The position numbers and the translations under genes are program-made. Below are positions 2,565-64,000 of a stretch of DNA of 64,000 bases, in pieces (positions within the stretch are counted from its first letter, which is position 1; each line of letters starts with the position of its first letter). This DNA comes from a virus. Where the stretch lies: positions 28,108 to 92,107 of IMG/VR virus record IMGVR_UViG_3300028416_000009. One strand, written 5' to 3'. The notes beneath the pieces are model-generated. The model saw only the letters and a list, made by a program, of their open reading frames with translations, did not search any database and was not told the origin of the DNA.

Positions 2565-3614
2565 ATGAACGAACAAAGGTTAAATAGGTTTAAAAAACTA
2601 CTTTCAGTACCAAGTAAGTCAAGAAATGAGTCTCAGATGGTTAACTTCATCTGTACTCAACTTGACAATATGATTGACAGTGGGGTTAATCTCGATTACT
2701 ACTTAGACGAACTTAGTAACATTTATGTGACTAAAGGAGAGTCTGAATCGTACCCGTGTTTTATCTCACACACTGACACGGTACACGAAATAGACTCCAT
2801 CAACGTAGTTGAAGGGATTAAAACTAAACCTAACACTTTCGGTAAGTCATTTGGTAACGAAGAATTCGATGTTCTTTACGCAGTTAACGACCAAGGAAAT
2901 CCTACGGGTATTGGTGGTGACGACAAATCAGGGATTTTTATTTGTTTAGAAATCCTTCGTAACGTCCAAGAGTGTAAATTAGCTTTCTTTGTTTCTGAAG
3001 AAATTGGTTGTATAGGGTCATCAAACGCAGATGTCGAGTTTTTTAACGATGTAACATTTGTTTGTGAGTATGACGCACCTGGAGACCACTTAATTACCGA
3101 GATTTGTTCGGGAGTTCGTTTGTATGAAGTAAACGGTGAATTTATCAACACAATGAAACCAATCATCGAAAATTCCTTTGGTAACCCGATGATTGAACAA
3201 TCACACCCTTTTACCGACGTGATGCAACTTAAAAACAAGTTACCTGTGTCGTGTATCAATATCTCATGTGGATATTATAACATGCACAGTGTGAATGAAT
3301 TTATTGCACTGGTAGACGTAGAAAAAGCGATTGACTGTGGTATTAGTATGACTATGTATGGTTTACAGGATAAATATTACTATGAAAATGACACACCTAA
3401 ATATTTTAACGATTCTAAAGAGGATGTTTACGAATCTGAAAACTCTAAATGGTTAAGTGAAGGTGTTGTAATATTTGATGAGGATTCATCGGGAATTACG
3501 ATTGAGGAATACGAAACAGGAAACTGTGTCTACCTAACAGAGAAAGAATGTAAGAAATTATATGAAACTCTAAAGTCGAAATTCACACCCTCGTCACAGT
3601 ACCGTTTATTTTAA
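2565..3614 (+). CDS. M20-family-like zinc aminopeptidase
   Basis: A 349-residue protein with the ordered metal-binding motifs of M20/M28-type co-catalytic zinc peptidases: HTDTV (first His and Asp), GGDDKSG (bridging Asp), EEIG (general-base Glu pair), a later Asp in EYDAPGD and a late His in NMHS. The order and spacing fit the peptidase T / aminopeptidase group. It would release amino acids from peptides in the cytoplasm, possibly finishing what the neighbouring Clp unfoldase starts (inference). It has its own host-type promoter and is followed by a strong bidirectional terminator. No signal peptide is seen. The exact substrate cannot be assigned. Confidence 0.8.
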   Translation: MNEQRLNRFKKLLSVPSKSRNESQMVNFICTQLDNMIDSGVNLDYYLDELSNIYVTKGESESYPCFISHTDTVHEIDSINVVEGIKTKPNTFGKSFGNEEFDVLYAVNDQGNPTGIGGDDKSGIFICLEILRNVQECKLAFFVSEEIGCIGSSNADVEFFNDVTFVCEYDAPGDHLITEICSGVRLYEVNGEFINTMKPIIENSFGNPMIEQSHPFTDVMQLKNKLPVSCINISCGYYNMHSVNEFIALVDVEKAIDCGISMTMYGLQDKYYYENDTPKYFNDSKEDVYESENSKWLSEGVVIFDEDSSGITIEEYETGNCVYLTEKECKKLYETLKSKFTPSSQYRLF

Positions 3615-3627
3615 ACACAAAAAAAGA

Positions 3628-3652
3628 AACACCCAATAGGGTGTTTTTTTTA
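3628..3652. terminator. Bidirectional terminator
   Basis: AACACCC/GGGTGTT hairpin with a four-base loop, flanked by A-rich and T-rich tracts, between the convergent genes ending at 3614 and 3650. Confidence 0.85.
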
Positions 3653-6445
3653 TTTAAGGAATAATTTAGATTCCCTTTGTCTTCTTGAGATTAACCCCTT
3701 ACTAAATTTACCATTAATCATTGTACTGTCTTTCGGCAAGATATTAGCAGCGGATTTATATTTTTTTTGTTTAACTAATTTAATGAAATTAGATTTTCTT
3801 AAACCTTGGCAACCCGCGTTAAATACCAACGATACTAATACGTCAAACATATTTTGAGTAATCATATGGTTATTTTTTGTAGTATCATCTGACTTCCACT
3901 CGTTTAGAAAACGTCTAACACAATTTGCCGATTCAGTGGCATCGTTCTGTAAGTATTTTTGCGCTTGTTCTTTAGTTATTACATCACCAACTTTAGGGGT
4001 TGGTTCAGAAAGTGCTCCTGTGTGTCCCCATCCAATTGTGACTCTACCATCACCTAATTTATATGCTTTCAATACGGGTTCTCCTTTTTGTTTTACACTA
4101 CCCTCATCGGTTTTTATTGTGTTCCAAAAATTTTGAGATGCCTTTAGTTTAGTGCCGTCTACGTAATTTTCATTAGTGACTACTTTTGTTTCTTTTTTCG
4201 TTGGGGGTGTTTTAGGTATTCTATTGGTAATTAGTTTTATTGATGGGTAAACAACACCTTGACGATTAGTCGAATAATCCTCTATTTTTACTATTTCTTT
4301 TTTACCTTTGGTGGTAAAGACTAACGTTTCACCTTTTAATCTAATGTTATTACCACGAATAACTATTTTGGCTGGAGAACCAATTAAATCGACATTACCC
4401 TCTCCATAATATTTAACTAAATCACTCATCATAGCATAGTATAACGACATTGTTTCTTCGTCTTGTTCAAACAAACTTCTCTTAATTATGTGAGGTGATT
4501 CTTTTAATTTTAAACTGGTTTGAGTTAATAAGGTTATTATATCGTCAGATTCGACTTGTCTTATATATGACCTTCCGTAATCCACATCATTATTTGTATT
4601 GACAATACTAATTCTATGGTATCCTGTATCTATAGAATACCCCAAATATATAAACTCTTCACCGTTAGCAGTTTTGTATTTATGATTATCATACGTTGAA
4701 CGTTGAAGGTCCCATGTTGAAAGATATCTATAATTATCATAAGCTGCAGCGGGGGATTTAAGAATATCGAGACCATATTTAAGTAATTTTACACGGTCTT
4801 CCTTAAACTCATCAACCTCAAGTTCATACTCATCATTAATTTTATCGATTAACGATGCCACCCAATCCTTTTTAAATTCTGTAAATGCTGGACCTCTTTC
4901 TGAGTCATCAAAATATTCGTATTTGGCGTCTGACATATTAAATAAATCGGATTGCGAACCAACACCACGCCTCAAGTGTTTAGACTTTTCGATTGTGTCT
5001 TGAATATTATAACCCCTATGTGATGGTCTAATTAAATATTTAAAAAGTCCTGATACTTGTATTTCGTATTCTCGTAATTCATCTCTTTCTATTAACCCGA
5101 TAGTTTTAAACCCGTATTCCAGCCAATCATTATGTACTTTTTCCATTTCCTTTGAAAATCCTTCAGCATAACAACGTGTGCTGAATTCTTGGTATTCTTC
5201 CGCTAGTCTCCTCTCATCTTTATTAAACATCGATTTTAAAGTATCCGCGATATACTCGTCAAGTTCAAAATCATCGGCGCGTCCTTCAATTTTTTCTCTC
5301 TTTGCTATTAATCCTTTTTCAATAAGAACGTTATATAATTTTTTTAAGTCATCATTATCAATATCTCGTATATGATAACTTTCAGAGTCAACATCGTCCC
5401 AAGCCCCATCTGAATAATATTCATAATCAGGTTGTCGGTATCTAACATTCCATAACTCATAATTGTCGGTCTGACCATCGGCAAAAAATTGTGAAAAATC
5501 GTCATCATCTTCAAACTCAACGGAAAAATAACCTTTACGTCCGTCAACAACAAGGTCAATGGACCTTAGTTCTACTTCATTGTCGATATGTTTTTCTAAC
5601 ATATCATCTTCGTATAACCCACTTAAAACAATATAACATAAGTTATACAAATCAGGGGTTTCATTAAAGGCGTCGATTAATCTTTGTTGTGATGGGGAGT
5701 AGGTCTTTTCTTCGGTATCTTCTTTTAATCTTTTAGATTTACCGGTTCTACTGTATTGTTTAACTTCATATTTGTTTTCTTCAACCCACTTCATAACTTC
5801 ATGGATAGAATCGCCTATTCTAAAAGGGATATTTAACCCATTGTTTTTTAAGGGTTCTGATGAGACATACTTACCACCTTTCGTATAGTATATCATAGAC
5901 GATTTTGATAACATTGCGAAACCACCCTTCTTATGAATAACCATTCGGTTACACAACGGTTTAATCGACTCTATCGATAGGTCTTCATTAATTTTTTCAG
6001 GTCTATTCATCATAAATCCAATACTATTTTCTTGGTAGTGTTTATTATAAATATCAATAATTTTGATACCGTCTGAATCTCTATCTGCTTTATCAAACTC
6101 ATTTTTTAAATATTTAATACCATTTAGGTGTTCATTGTTTAGTTCGTCATAAACTATTAAGTCTTTTAGTTCATAACCATTACCCCTATATAGTCCATAT
6201 TTTTGTGAAGACATTTGATTGTGAATGGTTGGGTTTTTAATGATTAGATATGCTAACACACCCATTGTGATGTGTTCGTCAAAATCACTATCGTCGTCTC
6301 TTTTTGTTGTACACCATTTTGTGTTTGCACCATACTTACACGATGCCGTGTGTGTTAATGGTACAACCAATAAATAATTTTCGTCGTCGTAAATCTTTTT
6401 ATATTCAGACTTATCAACTTTAAACCCCTCGTTAATTTTAGACAT
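3650..6445 (-). CDS. Large phage protein with C-terminal GH24 (T4-type) lysozyme
   Basis: 931 residues. The last 165 or so form a GH24 lysozyme: the catalytic Glu lies in KTDEG (about residue 781), followed by GRVTIGWGHT (about 800-809) with the conserved Gly-Trp-Gly-His-Thr, and the helical end ISRRQRESKLF. It would cut peptidoglycan glycan strands. The first 150 residues carry KYGANTKWCTT, a W-C-T motif I have met in phage proteins of unknown function. The middle 600 residues are acidic, Tyr-rich and unrecognised. The start MSKINE-G contains an IxE site like other putative head proteins here. Size and fusion suggest a virion-associated lysozyme rather than a free endolysin. TATTTATA lies 15 bases upstream. 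Confidence 0.85.
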   Translation of the reverse strand: MSKINEGFKVDKSEYKKIYDDENYLLVVPLTHTASCKYGANTKWCTTKRDDDSDFDEHITMGVLAYLIIKNPTIHNQMSSQKYGLYRGNGYELKDLIVYDELNNEHLNGIKYLKNEFDKADRDSDGIKIIDIYNKHYQENSIGFMMNRPEKINEDLSIESIKPLCNRMVIHKKGGFAMLSKSSMIYYTKGGKYVSSEPLKNNGLNIPFRIGDSIHEVMKWVEENKYEVKQYSRTGKSKRLKEDTEEKTYSPSQQRLIDAFNETPDLYNLCYIVLSGLYEDDMLEKHIDNEVELRSIDLVVDGRKGYFSVEFEDDDDFSQFFADGQTDNYELWNVRYRQPDYEYYSDGAWDDVDSESYHIRDIDNDDLKKLYNVLIEKGLIAKREKIEGRADDFELDEYIADTLKSMFNKDERRLAEEYQEFSTRCYAEGFSKEMEKVHNDWLEYGFKTIGLIERDELREYEIQVSGLFKYLIRPSHRGYNIQDTIEKSKHLRRGVGSQSDLFNMSDAKYEYFDDSERGPAFTEFKKDWVASLIDKINDEYELEVDEFKEDRVKLLKYGLDILKSPAAAYDNYRYLSTWDLQRSTYDNHKYKTANGEEFIYLGYSIDTGYHRISIVNTNNDVDYGRSYIRQVESDDIITLLTQTSLKLKESPHIIKRSLFEQDEETMSLYYAMMSDLVKYYGEGNVDLIGSPAKIVIRGNNIRLKGETLVFTTKGKKEIVKIEDYSTNRQGVVYPSIKLITNRIPKTPPTKKETKVVTNENYVDGTKLKASQNFWNTIKTDEGSVKQKGEPVLKAYKLGDGRVTIGWGHTGALSEPTPKVGDVITKEQAQKYLQNDATESANCVRRFLNEWKSDDTTKNNHMITQNMFDVLVSLVFNAGCQGLRKSNFIKLVKQKKYKSAANILPKDSTMINGKFSKGLISRRQRESKLFLK

Positions 6446-6460
6446 AATCTATATTATTAA

Positions 6461-6468
6461 TATAAATA
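6461..6468 (-). promoter_or_regulatory. TATTTATA motif, candidate phage late promoter
   Basis: TATTTATA on the coding strand, 15 bases before the start of the lysozyme fusion. Part of a recurring set described in the findings. Confidence 0.45.
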
Positions 6469-6533
6469 TATCCTTAAAGGGATATTTATCAATACAGTAG
6501 AGTAGAATCTATATGTATTAAATTTATTTAAAG

Positions 6534-6571
6534 CCTCAGGTCTACAGTTGTACAGACTTGAGGTTTTTTTT
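6534..6571. terminator. Strong hairpin terminator
   Basis: 10-bp stem CCTCAGGTCT/AGACTTGAGG (one GU pair) with a 10-base loop, followed by eight T. It stands alone between divergent genes, so it may end a transcript that reads in from the left or a short RNA. Confidence 0.75.
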
Positions 6572-6664
6572 ATGATAACACTTTACTAATATTTTTTTAC
6601 ACTTACTAGTTCTAGCATCCCAGCACTTTTAACAAAAAATATTTAAAAATCAAATAAATTATAC

Positions 6665-6672
6665 TATTTATA
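6665..6672 (+). promoter_or_regulatory. TATTTATA motif, candidate phage late promoter
   Basis: TATTTATA 19 bases before the start codon of the papain-like protease. No TAnnTTTG element is seen here. Confidence 0.45.
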
Positions 6673-6691
6673 TCATATATAAAGTGCGCAT

Positions 6692-7471
6692 ATGGTAAAT
6701 TTTGATTTATTGAACGAAGAAATAAGTCCCTTCGATGAAAGAGACATACAAGTTGAAGGATTACTCAATCCTGATTTACAACTACCTAAAAAAATTGACT
6801 ACCGAAAAGAACTTCCAGGGGCATGGAATCAAGGTATTGATGGTCCGTGTTCCGCATATGCTGCGGCAGCAATGAAACAATGGCAAGAACTTAAAGACTA
6901 CGGACTAAAAAAAACCCTTTCTAAACATTTCATTTATAATCTTAGGTCTAATAAACCACAAAGAGGAATGTACGCACGAAATACGATGCAAATACTACAA
7001 AAATATGGGTTACCGTATGATAAGTCATTCAGAAAAAAATGGAAAGACATTGAAGACATACCTTCTGAGGTATTTAAAGAAGCTTTAAACCACACGATTG
7101 TTGGATATGCGAAAGTTAATACGATAGATGGGTTGAAGAAGTCGTTATATAAAAACGGTCCGTGTTATGCGACATTCCCTGTTTATTCTAACGAACCTGA
7201 ATTTTGGGTACCCTCGTTTGGAAATAATAGAATTAAAGGTGGACATGCCGTTTGTATTGTTGGTTATGATAAACACGGTTTTATTATAAGAAATTCGTGG
7301 GGATGGGATTGGGCCGATAACGGACATTCCACATACTATTACGAGCAATGGGGTTCACATATGGAAATTTGGACAACAATCGATGACACCACTTCTGAGT
7401 TAGTCATTCCTTACAAAAGAAAGAGAAAAACAATCAAAGAATTTTTTAAGAACATTTTTGGTAAAAAATAG
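6692..7471 (+). CDS. Papain-like (C1A) cysteine protease
   Basis: 259 residues with the full C1A catalytic set in order: Gln47 in AWNQG (oxyanion hole), Cys53 in GPCSAYA, His185 in GGHAVCIVGY and Asn201 in RNSWGWDW. The usual C1A signature GSCWAF is changed to GPCSAY. There is no signal peptide and only a short pre-region, so no classical inhibitory propeptide. The start MVNFDLLNE-E contains an LxE site, which with the TATTTATA motif upstream suggests a virion or late protein (inference). Its target is unknown: it could process phage proteins or attack host proteins. Confidence 0.85.
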   Translation: MVNFDLLNEEISPFDERDIQVEGLLNPDLQLPKKIDYRKELPGAWNQGIDGPCSAYAAAAMKQWQELKDYGLKKTLSKHFIYNLRSNKPQRGMYARNTMQILQKYGLPYDKSFRKKWKDIEDIPSEVFKEALNHTIVGYAKVNTIDGLKKSLYKNGPCYATFPVYSNEPEFWVPSFGNNRIKGGHAVCIVGYDKHGFIIRNSWGWDWADNGHSTYYYEQWGSHMEIWTTIDDTTSELVIPYKRKRKTIKEFFKNIFGKK

Positions 7472-7757: not shown

Positions 7758-7877
7758 ATGGTTACTAAAATTCCATTAACTTCAGAAAATAGAATGTTAC
7801 GAATTGGGTTTGGTAAGAATAAGGGTAATTGGTTTATACGAGTAGACCTTTGGTATGTCGGGTATCGAATATCTTAA
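7758..7877 (+). CDS. Very small protein, unknown
   Basis: 39 residues with a compact beta-like core ([18 protein letters not shown]). It begins directly after the stop of the gene at 7607 and ends two bases before tRNA-Ser, which supports a tightly packed operon. No function assigned. Confidence 0.5.
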
Positions 7878-7879
7878 TA

Positions 7880-7965
<86 letters not shown>

Positions 7966-7973
7966 ATAGATTA

Positions 7974-12544: not shown

Positions 12545-12660
12545 GTAGAGTTAGTCAAATGGTACGACGCTCCAACCTTAAGACCGAAATCATCATACTA
12601 GTTACACGATGCGATTAAGTTGGTTAGGCAGAAGTAGGGGTTCGACCCCCCTACTCTACA
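12545..12660 (+). tRNA. tRNA-like gene with about 35 extra bases in the anticodon loop
   Basis: The ends are canonical: acceptor GTAGAGT/ACTCTAC, discriminator A, and T-arm AGGGG-TTCGACC-CCCCT. A D-arm with TGG is present. The anticodon stem is best read as CCAAC (12572-12576) with GTTGG (12619-12623). That leaves a 42-base loop instead of 7. The loop begins CTTAAGA, like the tRNA-Leu(TAA) loop CTTAAAA, so the simplest reading is tRNA-Leu(TAA) with a 35-base insertion at about 12584-12618. It is far too short for a group I intron. It may also be a decayed tRNA. Confidence 0.5.
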
Positions 12661-14624: not shown

Positions 14625-14628
14625 AATA

Positions 14629-14714
<86 letters not shown>

Positions 14715-14717
14715 AAC

Positions 14718-21997: not shown

Positions 21998-22414
21998 GGG
22001 GGTGACTTGGAATTGATTGGCAGGGTCAGTTATACGGGGCACGTAGTGAGATGTTTCCTATCACTTTAATCTACGGTGACAATTTTTTTAGACGGCAACG
22101 TTTACAACGAGATGGCAATGTTCGGCTTAGTGGCTGACGAAGCTATCGTTAACGCATAGTTAGACTACGTGTTAACAGTAACCCACTCTAAGAGTCGGTT
22201 ACATGGGGTCGGTCAGGACACATAACCTAGCAACAGAAGTCCGCAGTGTGGTAGAGTACGATTAAACCCTAAATTGAATCGTTCATTGGGTGTTGGTTGC
22301 AATGATAAATAATAACCAACAAATTTCGGAGTATTAGAAAATACTGACCTAAACGTGTAGTCCTTTATAGGTGGACTGAACAAGACCCGGGTTCGAAACC
22401 CGGCACCTCCACCA
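21998..22414 (+). ncRNA. ssrA: tmRNA (SsrA)
   Basis: 417 bases. The tRNA-like ends pair as GGGGGTG/CACCTCC with a T-arm around TTCGAAA, discriminator A and an encoded CCA (unlike the tRNAs here). A first pseudoknot stem CGTAG/CTACG is visible before the message part. An open frame of 22 codons starts at about GAC 22091 and stops at TAG 22157-22159. It would rescue stalled ribosomes and tag proteins for proteolysis. The tag ends in IVNA rather than the usual LAA. Confidence 0.9.
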
Positions 22415-35325: not shown

Positions 35326-37614
35326 TTAAAGATTTTTCAACTCTGGTGGTAACATACTAACAGGTATGCCGAATTTCTTCTTTTCAGGACCGCCTTTAAA
35401 ATTAAATCCATCAATTGATGTCTCATATCCATTAACACTTGCCCATGTCTTATGACCAGCATTTAGAACTTGTCCGACAACGAATGGGAATCTAATGTTA
35501 TATTTGTTTATAATGTCCACAATCTGACCGTTAGGGTGTTTCTCCACAGTAATAGTCACTTTAGGGTTAACTATTTTTCTAAACACAACCTTATCGACTC
35601 TTCTTCTCATAAATGAGTTATCTTCATTTAAATCTTGAATCTCATCAACAGTGGTTACTACTTCAGGGTAAATCATACCTAAATTTTTATCGTCTTTACC
35701 TTCGTAATCTACTTTATTTAGAACTGTTCTAATTGAGTTAAGTGCTCCCGCTCTTTTATCGTTTGTGTCTACAACTGACCATGGAATTACCTCGGCAGTT
35801 TGTTTCAATGCCTTTTCTTTGTATTCAGTATAGTCGTCCCACTTATCAATAGAAGCCTCATCGTTAGGTGAGAATTTCCAATACTTAAGTGGTGAGTTCT
35901 TTCTCATATCAAAACGTTTCCTTTGTGTGTCTTGTGTTATAGATAACCAAAACTTAAAGACATCGTATCCTTTGGATAAAAGTGAACTTTCAAAACTACC
36001 CACATTCTCCATAAAGTCAGAATATTCTTCCATTGTTGAGTATCCCATAACTGGTTCCACAATACCTCTATTATACCAACTTCTGTCAAAGAATATGATT
36101 TTACCTGATTCGATTTCTCTTTCGTATCTATCAAACCAATTCTTTTTTTCTTCGGGGGTTGGTATTCCTAAAGCAACTACCTTATAGTATTGTGGTTGTA
36201 GGTATTCTATAAATTTTTTAATTGTTGACCCTTTACCTGCCGAATCCCTACCTTCAAATACAATAACAACAGATTTACCTGTTTTCTTAACGTGTTCCTG
36301 TAATTTCAATAGTTCTACCTGTAAAGGTCTTAGTTCTTTTATAAATGATTTTCTACCGATTTTAGATTTTTCTTGTTCCTCATCATCATCAACGAAATAA
36401 CTATCTTCGTGTTCAGGTTCAGGAGAAACTCTATCGGTAAGTGATTTCTTATATTTTTCGATATATTTTATGACATTATCTTCTACGTTACCAGACTTAA
36501 GTGATTTTCTATCTAAATTACGTAAAAAATCTTTGGTAACATCTTCATCTGTTAATCCAACAATAAGGTCATCGTATTTGGATGGTTCGATATCTAACTC
36601 ATAAAATTTAGTTAGTAAGTCCACTACCGATTCATTGAGTGAATAAAGTTTTGTTGCAAACTGTTCTTTATTATTATACAAATATTGTAAAACCTCAGGT
36701 CTTAGATATGCTTTTAAATCATCAGTAAATAACGAGTAAACTCTATCTATTGGTTTATTACCATCTTCATTTGGTAAATATGAATCGACCTCATCTTTGG
36801 TTACGAACGGGAATTTTAATTGGTATTCCTCTAAACCCTCTTTGGGTTTTATACCTATTGAGTGGTATTTAGTACCTCCGGACATTAATTCTCCACGATT
36901 AAGTATTCTATCGATTAAACCATATTCACCCAATAATGGGCACATACTGTAGTATATAGACCTTTCTTCTTTAACTAAACGTGCAAAAATAAATGTAATA
37001 TTAGTATCCTTAAAACAAGTCATTAAAAACTCTGACTTATCTTCTTTACTATAATCATCACTCCTTAAGAAAGTCATTACGTTTTTTAGTGATTCATCAT
37101 TTTCGTTGTCCTTATATTTAACCCTCTTATACTTATCGAATACCCCCTTATAAGAACCTAGTTTAAAACGTTCTGTACGTTTAATACCATCTGAAACGAT
37201 TTTTAAAGAATAATGATTACCCTTAATTATAATGTCCGCTTTTGGGTTCTTTTCATTGTTTGACGGGTCTTCATAATTTAATTTTGCGGTTGTTTCACCA
37301 CCAAATAATCCTGCGAATATTCCTTCAAACGAGAAACCTCTACCATCGGTAGTTCCTGAAAATCTGTTCCAATACTCGTGAAATCTAATCCTATCTTTTA
37401 CCTTTAATGCCTTATCAGGGTTTTCATAATTAACACCTAATTTAAGTCTCATTGCATTCCCTTCATCTCCTTTCATGATACCTTTTACCATATCCGAAGA
37501 TGCTATGTTGTCCATGTGTATACCGCCTAACAACTTAATTGCCTTAATTATATGGTCTTCAGACGATTCATTAAGAATATTGACTATCTGTTTATTTGTG
37601 AATTTTATCTTCAT
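35326..37614 (-). CDS. Polyphosphate kinase 2 fused to a phage head-type domain
   Basis: 762 residues from the ATG at 37614, chosen over an upstream ATG because it gives the leader MKIKFTNKQIVNILNE-S (LNE at 14-16) and places TATTTATA 17 bases upstream. Residues 1-400 are a phage-specific region with ADIIIKGNHYSLKIV (about 126-140), which could be a PD-(D/E)xK-like core. Residues about 420-635 are a PPK2 domain: FEGRDSAGKGS (Walker A, about 453-463), FDRSWYNR (509-516) and the lid with RKRFDMR. PPK2 moves phosphate between polyphosphate and nucleotides. The last 130 residues are unrecognised. Packaging into the head is inferred from the leader. Confidence 0.88.
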   Translation of the reverse strand: MKIKFTNKQIVNILNESSEDHIIKAIKLLGGIHMDNIASSDMVKGIMKGDEGNAMRLKLGVNYENPDKALKVKDRIRFHEYWNRFSGTTDGRGFSFEGIFAGLFGGETTAKLNYEDPSNNEKNPKADIIIKGNHYSLKIVSDGIKRTERFKLGSYKGVFDKYKRVKYKDNENDESLKNVMTFLRSDDYSKEDKSEFLMTCFKDTNITFIFARLVKEERSIYYSMCPLLGEYGLIDRILNRGELMSGGTKYHSIGIKPKEGLEEYQLKFPFVTKDEVDSYLPNEDGNKPIDRVYSLFTDDLKAYLRPEVLQYLYNNKEQFATKLYSLNESVVDLLTKFYELDIEPSKYDDLIVGLTDEDVTKDFLRNLDRKSLKSGNVEDNVIKYIEKYKKSLTDRVSPEPEHEDSYFVDDDEEQEKSKIGRKSFIKELRPLQVELLKLQEHVKKTGKSVVIVFEGRDSAGKGSTIKKFIEYLQPQYYKVVALGIPTPEEKKNWFDRYEREIESGKIIFFDRSWYNRGIVEPVMGYSTMEEYSDFMENVGSFESSLLSKGYDVFKFWLSITQDTQRKRFDMRKNSPLKYWKFSPNDEASIDKWDDYTEYKEKALKQTAEVIPWSVVDTNDKRAGALNSIRTVLNKVDYEGKDDKNLGMIYPEVVTTVDEIQDLNEDNSFMRRRVDKVVFRKIVNPKVTITVEKHPNGQIVDIINKYNIRFPFVVGQVLNAGHKTWASVNGYETSIDGFNFKGGPEKKKFGIPVSMLPPELKNL

Positions 37615-37631
37615 TGTTTTAACGTTATGTA

Positions 37632-37639
37632 TATAAATA
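37632..37639 (-). promoter_or_regulatory. TATTTATA motif, candidate phage late promoter
   Basis: TATTTATA on the minus strand, 17 bases before the preferred start at 37614. Confidence 0.45.
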
Positions 37640-37713
37640 TTAAATAATTCACTAATTATGTCTATAGTATAATATAAAACATAATTAACTCTACTTTTGG
37701 TTTTAACCAAATC

Positions 37714-40791: not shown

Positions 40792-41424
40792 ATGGAATTA
40801 AAAAACACAATAGGTCACTTTGAAGGAGCATTTACTCGTGAAGAGTGTGACTTAATTTTAGAAAGATTCGAAAGAGCAAAAACATTAAAATTAGCATATC
40901 AGGGACAATCAGGTTCAGGAGTGAACGATACAATAAAATCATCGATTGATTTTGATATTCTTTCGTCACCAGTAGAAGACGATGTATTATTTGGTTATGG
41001 TGTAATTGAAAAATTTAATGAAATTGTTGTAAACCAATATTTAGGTAGTTTCCCTCACCAAGACGAGACTAAACCAGGTGAGGATTTATTCTTGGCACCT
41101 ACTTTCTATGAACTACTACAGGTTCAAGAATATCCTAAATCTACAGGTCACTATAACGCATGGCACGCAGAGACAGGAACCTTCGAAATGAGTAGAAGAT
41201 TATTTTCTTTCTTACTTTACTTAGACGACGTAGAAGAAGGTGGAGAAACCGATTTTATATATGCCAATGGCGAAGATGGTAAAATGTTATCATTCAAACC
41301 GAAAAAGGGTACATTATTAATTCATCCAGCGTCTTTCCCTTATATACATAGAGGAAGAACCCCAATGTCTTCAAATAAAACAATATTAACCACGTGGCTA
41401 TCATATGAACCTGAATACGAATAA
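40792..41424 (+). CDS. 2OG-Fe(II) oxygenase, P4H-like with HxE triad
   Basis: 210 residues. GHYNAWHAETG gives His125-Ala-Glu127, an HxE instead of the usual HxD. The strands LFSFLLYLDDVEEGGETDF match P4H proteins exactly in layout, and distal His186 (SFPYIHRG) and a Lys/Thr-containing end follow. Fe(II) binding by HxE is known in a few oxygenases. Overlaps the methyltransferase gene by 20 bases. Confidence 0.85.
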   Translation: MELKNTIGHFEGAFTREECDLILERFERAKTLKLAYQGQSGSGVNDTIKSSIDFDILSSPVEDDVLFGYGVIEKFNEIVVNQYLGSFPHQDETKPGEDLFLAPTFYELLQVQEYPKSTGHYNAWHAETGTFEMSRRLFSFLLYLDDVEEGGETDFIYANGEDGKMLSFKPKKGTLLIHPASFPYIHRGRTPMSSNKTILTTWLSYEPEYE

Positions 41425-42095: not shown

Positions 42096-42983
42096 ATGTC
42101 TAATACACAATTAAGTACAATTGCCACCCTCGTCTCTAGTAAGATGAATAACATCATAGGGAAGGTAAACGAACATACAAACCAAAAAGCTGATATTGAT
42201 AGTCCGTCATTTACAGGTGATGTTTCTATTCAAAACTTAGGAAGTGATTTAGTACCGTCTAATAACGGATTATATAATTTAGGTTCTTCAACTAAGAGGT
42301 ATGGGAAAACATACACTGAAGAATTATATGTGTCAGATATTTTAAAAGTCACTAAAGAATCGAATAGCGTTATTTTTAGATTTACTTCGAGTGATACTAC
42401 AATTACAGATAGTATTGCAATTACTGACGGAGGAAAAGTAAAAATTAGTGATTCATATTCATTACCGTCATCTGATGGTACATTAGGACAAGTAATGGCA
42501 ACCGATGGTAATGGTAACGTCATCTTTAAGACAATTGAAAATGAATCGGCAGATTTCGCACAATACATACTAAGTACTGATTTTACTTCTGATGGTTCTA
42601 CAACATCATATACAGTAGAGGCGACAACATTAAATAAAGTTCTTTATGTGGAGTTAAATGGTCTTATACAGAAGAAGGGTACTGACTATACTGTTAGTGG
42701 TAAGGTTATTACATTCGCTGAAGCTCCACAGTCGGGGATGTCAGGTACTATCATGTTTTGGGGTAATGATATTACGTCAGCAGTTTCTACTACAGATATC
42801 ATAGGAAATGGTTCTACATCTAACTACACTACGACGGATACTTTAAATAAGGCTATATTAGTCGAAGTTAACGGACTCATCCAAAAGAAAGGTGTGAACT
42901 ATACTGTAAATGTCGTTAATAGTCGAATAGAATTTACTGACCCACTTCCATCAGGTTCTACAGGTACAATAGTCCACGTATAA
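42096..42983 (+). CDS. Tail-fibre- or baseplate-like virion protein with tandem repeats
   Basis: 295 residues. The phrase DSPSFTGDV with DLGS-type Gly/Ser-rich strands is typical of phage fibres. The C-terminal part holds two tandem copies of about 48 residues (LYVELNGLIQKKGTDYTV and ILVEVNGLIQKKGVNYTV), each ending in SG.SGTI. The gene is behind a TATTTATA motif. It is the only clear tail-type protein in the window. Confidence 0.78.
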   Translation: MSNTQLSTIATLVSSKMNNIIGKVNEHTNQKADIDSPSFTGDVSIQNLGSDLVPSNNGLYNLGSSTKRYGKTYTEELYVSDILKVTKESNSVIFRFTSSDTTITDSIAITDGGKVKISDSYSLPSSDGTLGQVMATDGNGNVIFKTIENESADFAQYILSTDFTSDGSTTSYTVEATTLNKVLYVELNGLIQKKGTDYTVSGKVITFAEAPQSGMSGTIMFWGNDITSAVSTTDIIGNGSTSNYTTTDTLNKAILVEVNGLIQKKGVNYTVNVVNSRIEFTDPLPSGSTGTIVHV

Positions 42984-42984
42984 T

Positions 42985-43252
42985 CGACGAAGTCGTTTCC
43001 GGCGTACGAAAGACACTACAAAGTTAATTAAACTCATCAGAAACGATGGGTTTTCTTTTTTATAGACAATCTCAACAATCCGACGAAGTCGTTTCCGGCG
43101 CATGAAAGGGACTACAAAGTTAATTAAATCGATGGTTTTACGAGGGAAATCGTCAATAATTTAAAAAGACCCCCATTCAGACATTTCTTCAACAAAACCA
43201 CCAACCGACGAAGGTCGTTACCGGCGTATGAAAGACACTACAAAGTTAGTTT
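42985..43252 (+). repeat. Array of three 47-base structured repeats in a gene-free region
   Basis: Copies at 42985-43031, 43081-43127 and 43206-43252, on one strand, starting CGACGAAGTCG and ending in ACTACAAAGTTA. Each begins with a CGAC/GTCG hairpin with a GAA or GAAG loop; copy 3 has one extra loop base. A second, competing stem joins GTCGTTTC to GAAAGAC. The region 42984-43352 holds no gene I can support. It may be an RNA element, an origin or a protein-binding array. Confidence 0.75.
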
Positions 43253-43352
43253 TAGACTTCTAATTTATATCTCTTAAGAATATTACAAAATACATCAGTA
43301 ATTCGTTAACCCACTCCCATTCGGTCGTGGCAAACACGATTTACAGATTTAC

Positions 43353-44108
43353 TTATAATGAGTGAGAAGGATATTCAGAGGAAGAAGTGTTTAGTTCTAT
43401 ACCTAATAACTCATTAAATAATGGGTTTATATGTTTAGCAACTGAAGGGAGTAAGGGTAATGTGAACTCATACGAAGGGTGTGTATAAATTTCAATGTCT
43501 CCGACATTAATGTTCATGGGACACATTTTTATTAGTTCCTTCTGATACTCCATTACAGAATCACATAAAACCTGTGATAAGGAATCATCTTCCATATACT
43601 CAGTAAACTGATGTACAATGTGAGGATGATGTTTATCTAAAAGGTATTTACTATAATCATCTTCATCAGGGTACGGAAGGAGGATATCCTTAAGATAATC
43701 TTCTTCAGTTATGTTTAATCCGTAGTTATCATCTATTACGTTTAATTTAAGGAATATCTCTCTTAGTATACAGTATTCTAATATCATTATATTAGGAACA
43801 TCATCTAAGTGATTATTATCCAAGATATCCTTATAGGTTTCAAATAAAAGGTATCTCATATCATTCGTTACAGAGACTTCAATTAAACGTACAAAGTGTT
43901 TATCCATAGGGTTACTCACATTATAGTTTATAAGTTTACTATCACATTTAAGTATTAGTTCTCTTAATGTAAGTATTTCTTGAATATATCTTTCATTATC
44001 CTTATACTTAGTAAGGATACCATGTACTACATCATATACAGGTATTTTGAATCTATTATCCCATATACTTTCTTTAAGAATCTTATATGTTGATAAATTT
44101 ACTTTCAT
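43353..44108 (-). CDS. Putative processed phage protein (LKE leader)
   Basis: 251 residues from ATG 44108, chosen over an upstream ATG because it gives MKVNLSTYKILKE-S (LKE at 11-13), the leader type of the head set. The body is helical and acidic with Leu/Ile-rich stretches and no enzyme motif. Ends in a Ser-rich tail. Confidence 0.6.
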   Translation of the reverse strand: MKVNLSTYKILKESIWDNRFKIPVYDVVHGILTKYKDNERYIQEILTLRELILKCDSKLINYNVSNPMDKHFVRLIEVSVTNDMRYLLFETYKDILDNNHLDDVPNIMILEYCILREIFLKLNVIDDNYGLNITEEDYLKDILLPYPDEDDYSKYLLDKHHPHIVHQFTEYMEDDSLSQVLCDSVMEYQKELIKMCPMNINVGDIEIYTHPSYEFTLPLLPSVAKHINPLFNELLGIELNTSSSEYPSHSL

Positions 44109-44135
44109 TACTATGATATTAATATTTGGAAAGAT

Positions 44136-44143
44136 TATATTTG
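44136..44143 (+). promoter_or_regulatory. -7 element upstream of the gene at 44217
   Basis: TATATTTG; the -33 element is not clear. A GC-rich near-palindrome AAGGTCCGCGGCCTT follows at 44164-44178. Confidence 0.35.
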
Positions 44144-44216
44144 TATTACTTAGAAAGTAATCAAAGGTCCGCGGCCTTACCACATAAAATAATATATATA
44201 GAGAAAAAAAAGTATA

Positions 44217-44429
44217 GTGTTACAGAGGGAAGAGATAGAACGTATAGAAAAACAAAGGTATAGAATCGTAGAAACTAAGATTCGTAATATAGTCTCTTAT
44301 GTGGTAGAATATAGAACCTTTAATTATATCATCTTTAAAACATGGAAACCCATAGTGATGTGTAATACCTTCGATGAATGTGTGAAAAAGATAGACCGTT
44401 TAGTTAGTTTAAAAATAAGTGAATTTTAA
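44217..44429 (+). CDS. Small basic protein, unknown (GTG start)
   Basis: 70 residues starting at GTG (no ATG nearby): REEIERIEKQRYRIVETK then beta-like strands. Start and identity uncertain; the frame is otherwise open and has good composition. Confidence 0.5.
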   Translation: MLQREEIERIEKQRYRIVETKIRNIVSYVVEYRTFNYIIFKTWKPIVMCNTFDECVKKIDRLVSLKISEF

Positions 44430-44498
44430 TTTGTCTTTTACGAATAAATAGATTAATATAATTATATGGGTTCATAAATTAATACCCTTAATAGAATT

Positions 44499-45732: not shown

Positions 45733-46872
45733 ATGTTAGATAACCTACTAAGTAAATTAAAGGATAGTGTGGATGGTAACACGTTCAGTAAGGTAAGAAC
45801 GTTACTAAGTTTAGAACCGACTGTTTATGATAAGTCATATGATTTCCCAAATCGAGGTGGTGATATTGCCGTTGTATGGTATCTATTTGGTTTAAAACCT
45901 GAGTATATATATTTGGGATATTATTCCGTAGTATCTTTCTTACGTAGAACCGATTTAAAAGATTTTGACAGATACATATGTGTTCCTGAAGACTATGCGT
46001 TTATGGAATATATGCCGTTGTTTGAAGAGTTAGGTTTTAAAATACATACATCGTCATATCATTTCAAAGCACTTAAACCTGATTCATCTCTAATCGATAA
46101 CTATGATTACTTAATCACGTTAGACACTGACATATATTCTTTTGATGTTAGTGGGAATAGATACCCTTATTTTGAAGGTATTGAAGAGTTAGTTAAGTCC
46201 TACCGTAAGATTGGTGTTCGTCTTCCTTTTATGTGTGCCTCTTTAAACACAGGGTTTGGTCATCACATTAATAGACTTTCCGATATTATTTCAATTATTT
46301 CAGATGAGCCTGAGAAAACTAGAATAAATAAATACATATGGGAGTCAGAACATTATGATGGTGAAACTGCGTTTGATAATATTATAACTACGGATAAGTC
46401 TGACGATATACTATTCATTTTAAACTCAGTTGTTGATTACCTATCGATACCGTTCACTAGTGAAGAGGATAAGAAAAATTTGGTTGAAAATGCTTATAAT
46501 AAGTTCTTATGTCATCCGTGGCCAGTTAATGAGATATTTTCGTATCCGACCGAAATATTTAAAAAACACGGTATTCATGAGATTATAAACAAATTCCAAT
46601 CAGTACAACGATGGTTTTGGGACGATGAATTAGTGTATAAATTATATTATACATTGTATGTTATGGACGACACCTTTTCGTTTACTCAACTAATGGGTTA
46701 TAATCATTTTGATAATACAACTAATCGTGTATATGCAAATGATAAAGACGAGGATTTAAAACCAAATACTTTATACTTCACACATCCGTTTAACGAGATT
46801 AATGTCGATGATGTGGTATCAGTGAACACATTATTAAAAAGAATCGGTTACATCCCGTCTACTAAGTCGTAG
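45733..46872 (+). CDS. Glycosyltransferase-like protein
   Basis: 379 residues. YLITLDTDIYSFDV (about 137-150) carries a DxD-type motif; the front PNRGGDIAVVWYLFGL and the pattern LNTGFGHHINRLSDII resemble the layout of the protein at 22498. It would transfer a sugar. It is two bases after an oxygenase-like gene and converges on the cytochrome lipoprotein gene, overlapping by 25 bases. Confidence 0.65.
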   Translation: MLDNLLSKLKDSVDGNTFSKVRTLLSLEPTVYDKSYDFPNRGGDIAVVWYLFGLKPEYIYLGYYSVVSFLRRTDLKDFDRYICVPEDYAFMEYMPLFEELGFKIHTSSYHFKALKPDSSLIDNYDYLITLDTDIYSFDVSGNRYPYFEGIEELVKSYRKIGVRLPFMCASLNTGFGHHINRLSDIISIISDEPEKTRINKYIWESEHYDGETAFDNIITTDKSDDILFILNSVVDYLSIPFTSEEDKKNLVENAYNKFLCHPWPVNEIFSYPTEIFKKHGIHEIINKFQSVQRWFWDDELVYKLYYTLYVMDDTFSFTQLMGYNHFDNTTNRVYANDKDEDLKPNTLYFTHPFNEINVDDVVSVNTLLKRIGYIPSTKS

Positions 46873-51724: not shown

Positions 51725-52048
51725 TTAGTTGGAAGAACCTCCACCGGCACCTGAACCTCGTACGGCTCTGCCTCCACCACCTCTGTTGTTTGATGAACTA
51801 CTTCCACCACCACCTCGTGTTGTTGTTGTTGTTGTCCCTGAACTACTTCCACCACCTCCTTGTGTTGTTGTTGTTGTTCCTGAACCATTTCCTGAACCAT
51901 TTGATGAGCTACTTCCACCACCTCCTTGTGTTGTACTAGTAGTTACATTACTGGTTGTCGTATTAGTTGTTGTTCCTGATGATTTTTTATTTTTGTAAAT
52001 CACGAACCCTACAATTACTACCGCTAAAATAATTAAAACTGTTGTCAT
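51725..52048 (-). CDS. Membrane-anchored Gly/Ser/Thr-rich repeat protein
   Basis: 107 residues: N-terminal membrane helix (about 3-17, TVLIILAVVIVGFVIY) and then a low-complexity tail with repeats such as TTTQGGGGSSS and TTTRGGGGSSSS. Tail may be a flexible display linker. The proline-rich plus-strand frame over it is a shadow. Confidence 0.6.
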   Translation of the reverse strand: MTTVLIILAVVIVGFVIYKNKKSSGTTTNTTTSNVTTSTTQGGGGSSSSNGSGNGSGTTTTTQGGGGSSSGTTTTTTRGGGGSSSSNNRGGGGRAVRGSGAGGGSSN

Positions 52049-63393: not shown

Positions 63394-64000
63394 TTAGTTT
63401 TGGGTATCACCGTCACAGTCAGTAAAACCAACGTCACTTACCGCTCCACCTATAACCTTTATCCATCTAACTGGTGACATGTCCGTTGAATTAATAATTT
63501 CTCCGTTCACCACATAGAACCCATCCATTACAGGGTTAGTTAACTCTGCGTTTCTAAATATAGGTTTACCTAATAAATTTGGTATTGAATATCCCGTCTC
63601 ATCAACCCAAAATGGTGATGTTACTTCATAACCTGGTTCTTCACAAACATTGTTATTTATCTCCGCTAATACCGTAGATTTAAAATACTGATACGATGGT
63701 GGAAGAGAGTATGTTGTTGTTGTCGTTATATTCTCTGTCGTTGTCGTAGTAGTCACATCTTCTGTAGTAGTAGTTGTAGTCACATCTTCTGTAGTAGTAG
63801 TTGTAGTCACATCTTCTGTAGTAGTAGTTGTAGTCACATCTTCTGTAGTAGTAGTTGTAGTTACATCTTCTGTGGTAGTAGTTGTAGTTACATCTTCAGT
63901 TGTCGTTGTAGTTGTTACATCTTCTGTAGTAGTTGTTGTCGTTACATCTTCAGTAGTCGTTGTAGTTGTTGACGGAATCACCGTTATCTGAACATTGTAT
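63394..64000 (-). CDS. Threonine-rich repeat protein, virion or surface type (partial)
   Basis: The frame is open to the right edge, so the true N-terminus lies outside; upstream codons read on in frame before the repeats. A block of 8 tandem 9-residue repeats (EDVTTTTTT, 27 bases each) is followed by a degenerate ninth and then a compact C-terminal domain of about 110 residues (ends VGFTDCDGDTQN). Thr-rich linkers occur in phage fibres and in Bacteroidota surface proteins. A virion fibre or adhesin with a stalk is the best guess. Confidence 0.72.
   Translation of the reverse strand, partial: YNVQITVIPSTTTTTTEDVTTTTTTEDVTTTTTTEDVTTTTTTEDVTTTTTTEDVTTTTTTEDVTTTTTTEDVTTTTTTEDVTTTTTTENITTTTTYSLPPSYQYFKSTVLAEINNNVCEEPGYEVTSPFWVDETGYSIPNLLGKPIFRNAELTNPVMDGFYVVNGEIINSTDMSPVRWIKVIGGAVSDVGFTDCDGDTQN
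63715..63975. repeat. 27-base tandem repeat array (TTTTTTEDV coding)
   Basis: About eight to nine copies with a 27-base period, the middle copies identical and the outer ones diverged by silent changes. The array keeps the reading frame, so gains and losses of whole units would change stalk length without a frameshift. Confidence 0.8.

Follow-up and report, generated by a model that had tools for sequence, protein, structure and literature searches.

In the 64,000-nucleotide stretch of DNA analysed here (the window; bases 28108-92107 of a linear virus record of 92,107 bases), a tail-fibre-like gene and a minus-strand gene face each other across an intergenic junction, which carries three copies of a short repeat (Table 1). 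The preliminary description of this DNA placed the repeats just after the tail-fibre-like gene, and this is borne out by the position of copy 1 (start at 42985, with the stop codon ending at 42983). Its statement that the junction is the only sizeable gene-free region does not hold: when tRNAs, the tmRNA and ATG-initiated ORFs from about 50 codons upward are taken as genes, similar gaps are found at 44109-44498 (390 bases) and 6446-6691 (246 bases). The last bases of copy 1 are also the first bases of the stem of a terminator-like hairpin, which is the probable end of the transcript of the tail-fibre-like gene, and copies 2 and 3 lie past it. As the junction is convergent, the copies are not the promoter or leader of either neighbour. 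A fold scan singles out the segment 43261-43380, where the minus-strand gene ends (z about -3; both strands at 43261-43350), and this signal is probably that gene's own transcript end.

Table 1. Features of the convergent junction (coordinates of the window; identities between copies calculated over 47-49 bases)
Feature	Coordinates	Strand	Remarks
Tail-fibre-like gene, 295 aa	42096..42983	+	Weak matches to PHROG tail fibre families
Convergent intergenic junction, 369 bases	42984..43352		Contains all three copies
Repeat copy 1	42985..43032	+	Starts right behind the stop codon of the tail-fibre-like gene (42981-42983)
Intrinsic-terminator-like hairpin with T run	43030..43053	+	Pattern scan and fold; between copies 1 and 2
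Repeat copy 2	43081..43128	+	92% identity with copy 1
Repeat copy 3	43206..43254	+	One inserted G; 90% identity with copy 1, 87% with copy 2, with gap
Convergent gene of unknown function, 251 aa from ATG (276 from GTG)	43353..44108 (or 44183)	-	No family match

The record encodes a major head protein of the T4 type, a portal protein and a large terminase. Compared with its counterparts in the 80 closest IMG/VR contigs, the head protein shows 63-88% identity; against that of Flavobacterium phage immuto the value is about 43% (best segments). The virus is T4-like. A Shine-Dalgarno-like word within the 20 bases before the ATG was found in none of 36 long genes, and the record has about 30 occurrences of the pattern TTG-N18-24-TAnnTTTG, several of which precede genes. 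Bacteroidota are characterised by a lack of Shine-Dalgarno sequences and by a TTTG/TANNTTTG promoter (PMC6847099); these two features of the record therefore suggest that the host probably belongs to the Bacteroidota. The genes from 40056 to about 48000 form an accessory region with no strong homologue in related contigs, in which the sole match, weak and partial, concerned the tail-fibre-like gene. No relatives were found for the gene at 43353-44108, nor were any reached through this and two other neighbouring genes (40792-41421 and 45733-46869).

Several further features of the window were recorded. An exact duplication of 91 bases with a tRNA-Ser(TGA) gene is present at 7876-7966 and 14625-14715, and a phage-encoded tmRNA (21998-22414; Rfam RF00023, 82.5 bits), not reported by ARAGORN, lies among eight or nine tRNA genes. 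Rfam also identified a 116-base tRNA at 12545-12660 (40 bits), missed by ARAGORN, which is possibly an interrupted or unusual tRNA. A minus-strand gene (35326-37710) encodes a protein of 762-794 aa with a PPK2 polyphosphate-kinase domain (residues 455-674) and a long N-terminal part that matches no family. Two tandem repeats, of 27 bp x 8.9 copies (63719-63957) and 42 bp x 2.3 copies (51794-51892), overlap minus-strand ORFs (63394-63981 and 51725-52048, respectively) and are probably coding.

The three copies are direct repeats of about 48 bases, all on the plus strand and 87-92% identical, with starts 96 and 125 bases apart, as had been described; the second spacing becomes 126 if taken in the 3' core, owing to an extra G in GAAGGTCG of copy 3. 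The gaps between the copies are 48 and 77 bases long. Divergence among the copies amounts to 8-13%, including the indel and an altered 3' end in copy 3, and the ends are nearly identical in all three. The G+C content of the copies (42-44%) exceeds that of the spacers (36%) and of the record (32%). A 28-base core pattern allowing up to three mismatches gave exactly three matches in the window and none in 100 dinucleotide shuffles. The search for further copies elsewhere in the genome, proposed in the preliminary description, was run on the whole 92-kb record with a 25-base core (exact, with N at variable positions): it returned the same three matches and no fourth copy, and the reversed 25-base pattern, used as a control, gave none. 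The repeat set is real and not a product of chance.

The spacers, by contrast with the cores, are mutually unlike: their alignment scores are reached by 0.07-0.66 of shuffles, with a value of 0.28 for the two inter-copy spacers. As the cores are 87-92% identical and the spacers align like shuffles, a recent simple duplication of a unit of about 96-126 bp is unlikely, and recent tandem duplication was rejected on these grounds. Had a whole block been duplicated recently, the spacers would have been copied with it; either the unit itself was therefore copied or inserted on three occasions, or selection maintains the core. Inspection of the junction by eye revealed no target-site duplications or terminal inverted repeats around the copies.

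Relatives of the repeats were sought in several collections. In IMG/VR, a degenerate core pattern gave no match, and a second, shorter core pattern gave a single match (L188), GC-rich and present in one copy only, which was taken as chance, as were three 20-base matches (L091-L093) covering only the first part of one copy. Two core patterns found no match in GTDB bacterial genomes, and a host-derived repeat was rejected for this lack of copies. A scan of 50 virus records, either related or candidate, allowing up to three mismatches found nothing, and neither did a sequence-model search of 37 further records at E 1; no similarity to the repeats was present in INPHARED, and no relative in nine large related phage contigs. 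Conservation among related phages, the absence of which the preliminary description had named as telling against its proposals, was thus looked for in IMG/VR, INPHARED and the related contigs and not found; absence from the genomes searched is not proof. Among the papers listed by literature searches on repeats near tail-fibre genes, none describes such an element in its title or abstract. Tail-fibre mosaicism is mentioned in a T4 review (PMC2993671), whose text does not contain the word “repeat”. The repeats are a lineage-specific cluster of three short intergenic elements.

No coding signal was obtained in any of the six frames, amino-acid similarity between the copies being no greater than expected for randomly placed substitutions (p 0.13-0.55), in a test that is weak because substitutions are few. 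The copies might nonetheless be short basic peptide repeats or decayed coding sequence, given that one minus-strand frame of 50 codons (42951-43103) is open across copies 1 and 2; this frame, however, has a stop in copy 3, and peptide searches in related phages returned nothing below E 0.3, making a coding origin very improbable. We consider it just as improbable that the copies are leftward promoter-like sites. The minus-strand word TAACTTTG is an exact match, in all three copies, to TAHHTTTG, the consensus of the Bacteroidota -7 element (PMC6847099), and complete TTG-N18-24-TAnnTTTG sites are present elsewhere in the record. However, none of the copies has a suitably spaced -33 TTG, and a promoter array is therefore unlikely; transcription from such sites would run antisense into the tail-fibre gene, and -7 words of this kind occur 63-85 times per strand of the record.

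The hairpin attributed to the repeats survives in part. The CGAC/GTCG letters are present in each copy and the stem bases are invariant, but the stem has only 4 bp (loop of 3-4 bases) and appears in none of the three predicted minimum-energy plus-strand folds. When one copy is mononucleotide-shuffled, a comparable stem (4 bp, at least three G-C pairs, loop of 3-8) arises in 6.7% of cases. Because the stem is unchanged from copy to copy, pairing gains no support from compensatory substitutions. Each copy is less stable than most of its own shuffles on both strands (six folds, z +0.5 to +1.5), the whole junction folds with a z of 0.12, 90-base windows over the copies do not fall below -1.2, and no Rfam 15 family matched the repeats above its gathering score. 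The proposal of a regulatory RNA array is not upheld by these results. Such an array, or a set of RNA-processing sites in the 3' part of the transcript from the tail-fibre gene, would accord with the short dyad, the shared strand of the repeats and the tail-fibre-like gene, and the location of copy 1 directly after the stop codon; we nevertheless regard it as unlikely, in view of the folding results, the loss of a TTTC/GAAA pairing in copy 3 and the position of copies 2 and 3 behind the terminator-like hairpin.

Tentatively, we interpret the three copies as a small array of a discrete duplex-DNA element of about 48 bp, serving as sites for a sequence-specific protein. The contrast between like cores and unlike spacers, the near-equal ends, the convergent position, the lack of RNA structure and of coding signal, and a G+C content above that of the spacers are all consistent with this interpretation. 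The array would occupy the convergent junction behind the accessory tail-fibre-like gene, with the core maintained while the spacers drift. Its putative reader would be a protein binding double-stranded DNA in a sequence-specific manner, probably phage-encoded, and candidate types include recombination, nicking or homing, and DNA-organising proteins. Against the array stand the lack of any relative in the genomes searched, and hence of conservation across phages; the presence of only three copies, 8-13% diverged; the length of 48 bp, long for one binding site; and the fact that no candidate binding protein was identified. The sharp limits of the copies could equally have arisen by the copying or insertion of a small unit without function.

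This last possibility is a serious competitor. While the phage replicated in its recombination-driven manner, illegitimate recombination, template switching or a tiny mobile unit may have placed a small fragment three times in a convergent junction that tolerates such additions, and the copies may have drifted since without function. The drift observed, with its indel and the changed 3' end of copy 3, the restriction of the copies to this one place among all the genomes searched, and the situation of the junction inside an accessory region all fit such inert repeats, which we consider a real possibility. However, copying would be expected to yield ragged, differing ends or to take the spacers along, whereas the ends here are nearly shared, and neither target-site duplications nor terminal inverted repeats are visible. 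We tentatively put the binding-site array slightly ahead of inert copies: we infer that function, and not the way in which the copies arose, accounts for the sharp limits, and that the reader is a DNA-binding protein.

Sites for initiators, terminases or recombinases commonly take the form of discrete direct repeats in non-coding DNA, and the form of the present core would suit an origin of replication, a packaging signal or an att-like site, as suggested in the preliminary description. These assignments are nonetheless improbable: the spacing is irregular, the setting is convergent rather than divergent, no skew switch occurs at the site, the G+C content of the array is above the record average and there are no bacterial copies; for a packaging signal in particular, T4-like phages use headful packaging. 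As the record is an incomplete linear contig, a partner site or enzyme could lie beyond it. In another reading, the repeats might be recognised by a phage protein of a hitherto unrecognised kind, acting in recombination or DNA organisation, through which the tail-fibre end of this phage could be swapped between phages. They would then act as a cassette anchor exactly behind the stop codon in a T4-like phage of Bacteroidota, a role that we regard as rather far-fetched. Clusters of short repeats between genes are commonplace in phages, and little rests on the present set as it stands; having no relatives among the genomes searched, it would matter only as a recognition site that drives the exchange of host-range genes, if it is one. 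To our knowledge, which is not exhaustive, no such exchange anchor is known for T4-like phages of Bacteroidota.

Repeated intergenic hairpins were encountered in two related contigs (G005 and G030) and a further viral contig (L189). In related or similar phages, arrays of such elements lie at L115 (G005:100001-107216) 3460-6715, L189 536-14250, L197 9498-10766 and L158/L159 (G030 142283-158100). These cassettes typically lie between a terminator and the next gene, and consist of the terminator, a strongly folding hairpin (TTGTCTGGA...TCCAGACAA or TGTGGCG...CGCCACA) and a promoter-like sequence, between small genes. One example reads ATTTTGTCTGGA...TCCAGACAAAAT, with the inner GGTGTATGACACTT kept, and that of G030 reads ATTTATGTGGCG...CGCCACATAAAT; the arms differ between phages and the pairing is kept. 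L189 has at least ten copies. Several cassettes fold far better than their shuffles (z -4 to -6), and L115, L158 and L159 matched no Rfam family. The window repeats and the TTGTCTGGA...TCCAGACAA cassettes are both repeated intergenic elements of a related group of T4-like phages, but the cassettes, placed between a terminator and the gene that follows it, form strong folds (z to -6), which the window repeats do not. Homology between the two, suggested by GGYGTATG..GACACT, was rejected because 0.37 of shuffles reach this similarity. The hairpin cassette of the related phages looks more interesting than the repeats and deserves a study of its own.

Several known systems share features with the array. 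REP elements combine GTAG with an imperfect hairpin, and the window repeats resemble them in the minus-strand GTAG of each copy, followed in copy 1 by an imperfect GTCTTTC...GAAACGAC dyad. However, copies 2 and 3 have a broken dyad, all the copies lie in one junction, and no Y1 (PF01797)/RAYT transposase is encoded in the (incomplete) record; a REP/RAYT system was rejected because the dyad is not kept and the enzyme is absent from the record. A small hairpin word immediately behind a tail-fibre-like gene's stop codon also recalls the target-site hairpin of diversity-generating retroelements, which was rejected because the (incomplete) record has no reverse transcriptase and self-comparison gave no template/variable repeat pair. 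A CRISPR or mini-CRISPR was likewise rejected, the gaps between the three copies differing from regular unique spacers of about 30 bp. Nor does the array resemble an iteron-type origin, given its spacings, its above-average G+C content, neighbours that are a tail-fibre-like gene and a gene of unknown function, and the fact that no initiator was identified. The window repeats can also be compared with known binding-site arrays made up of direct repeats, such as iterons, stoperators and the R sites of lambda cosB. Those systems have cores of about 13-22 bp, a known protein and usually regular spacing or a genome-wide spread, whereas the core here is 48 bp long, in three irregular copies with no known protein; common to all of them and to the window repeats are a short conserved core, several copies in the same orientation, unrelated spacers and a non-coding location.
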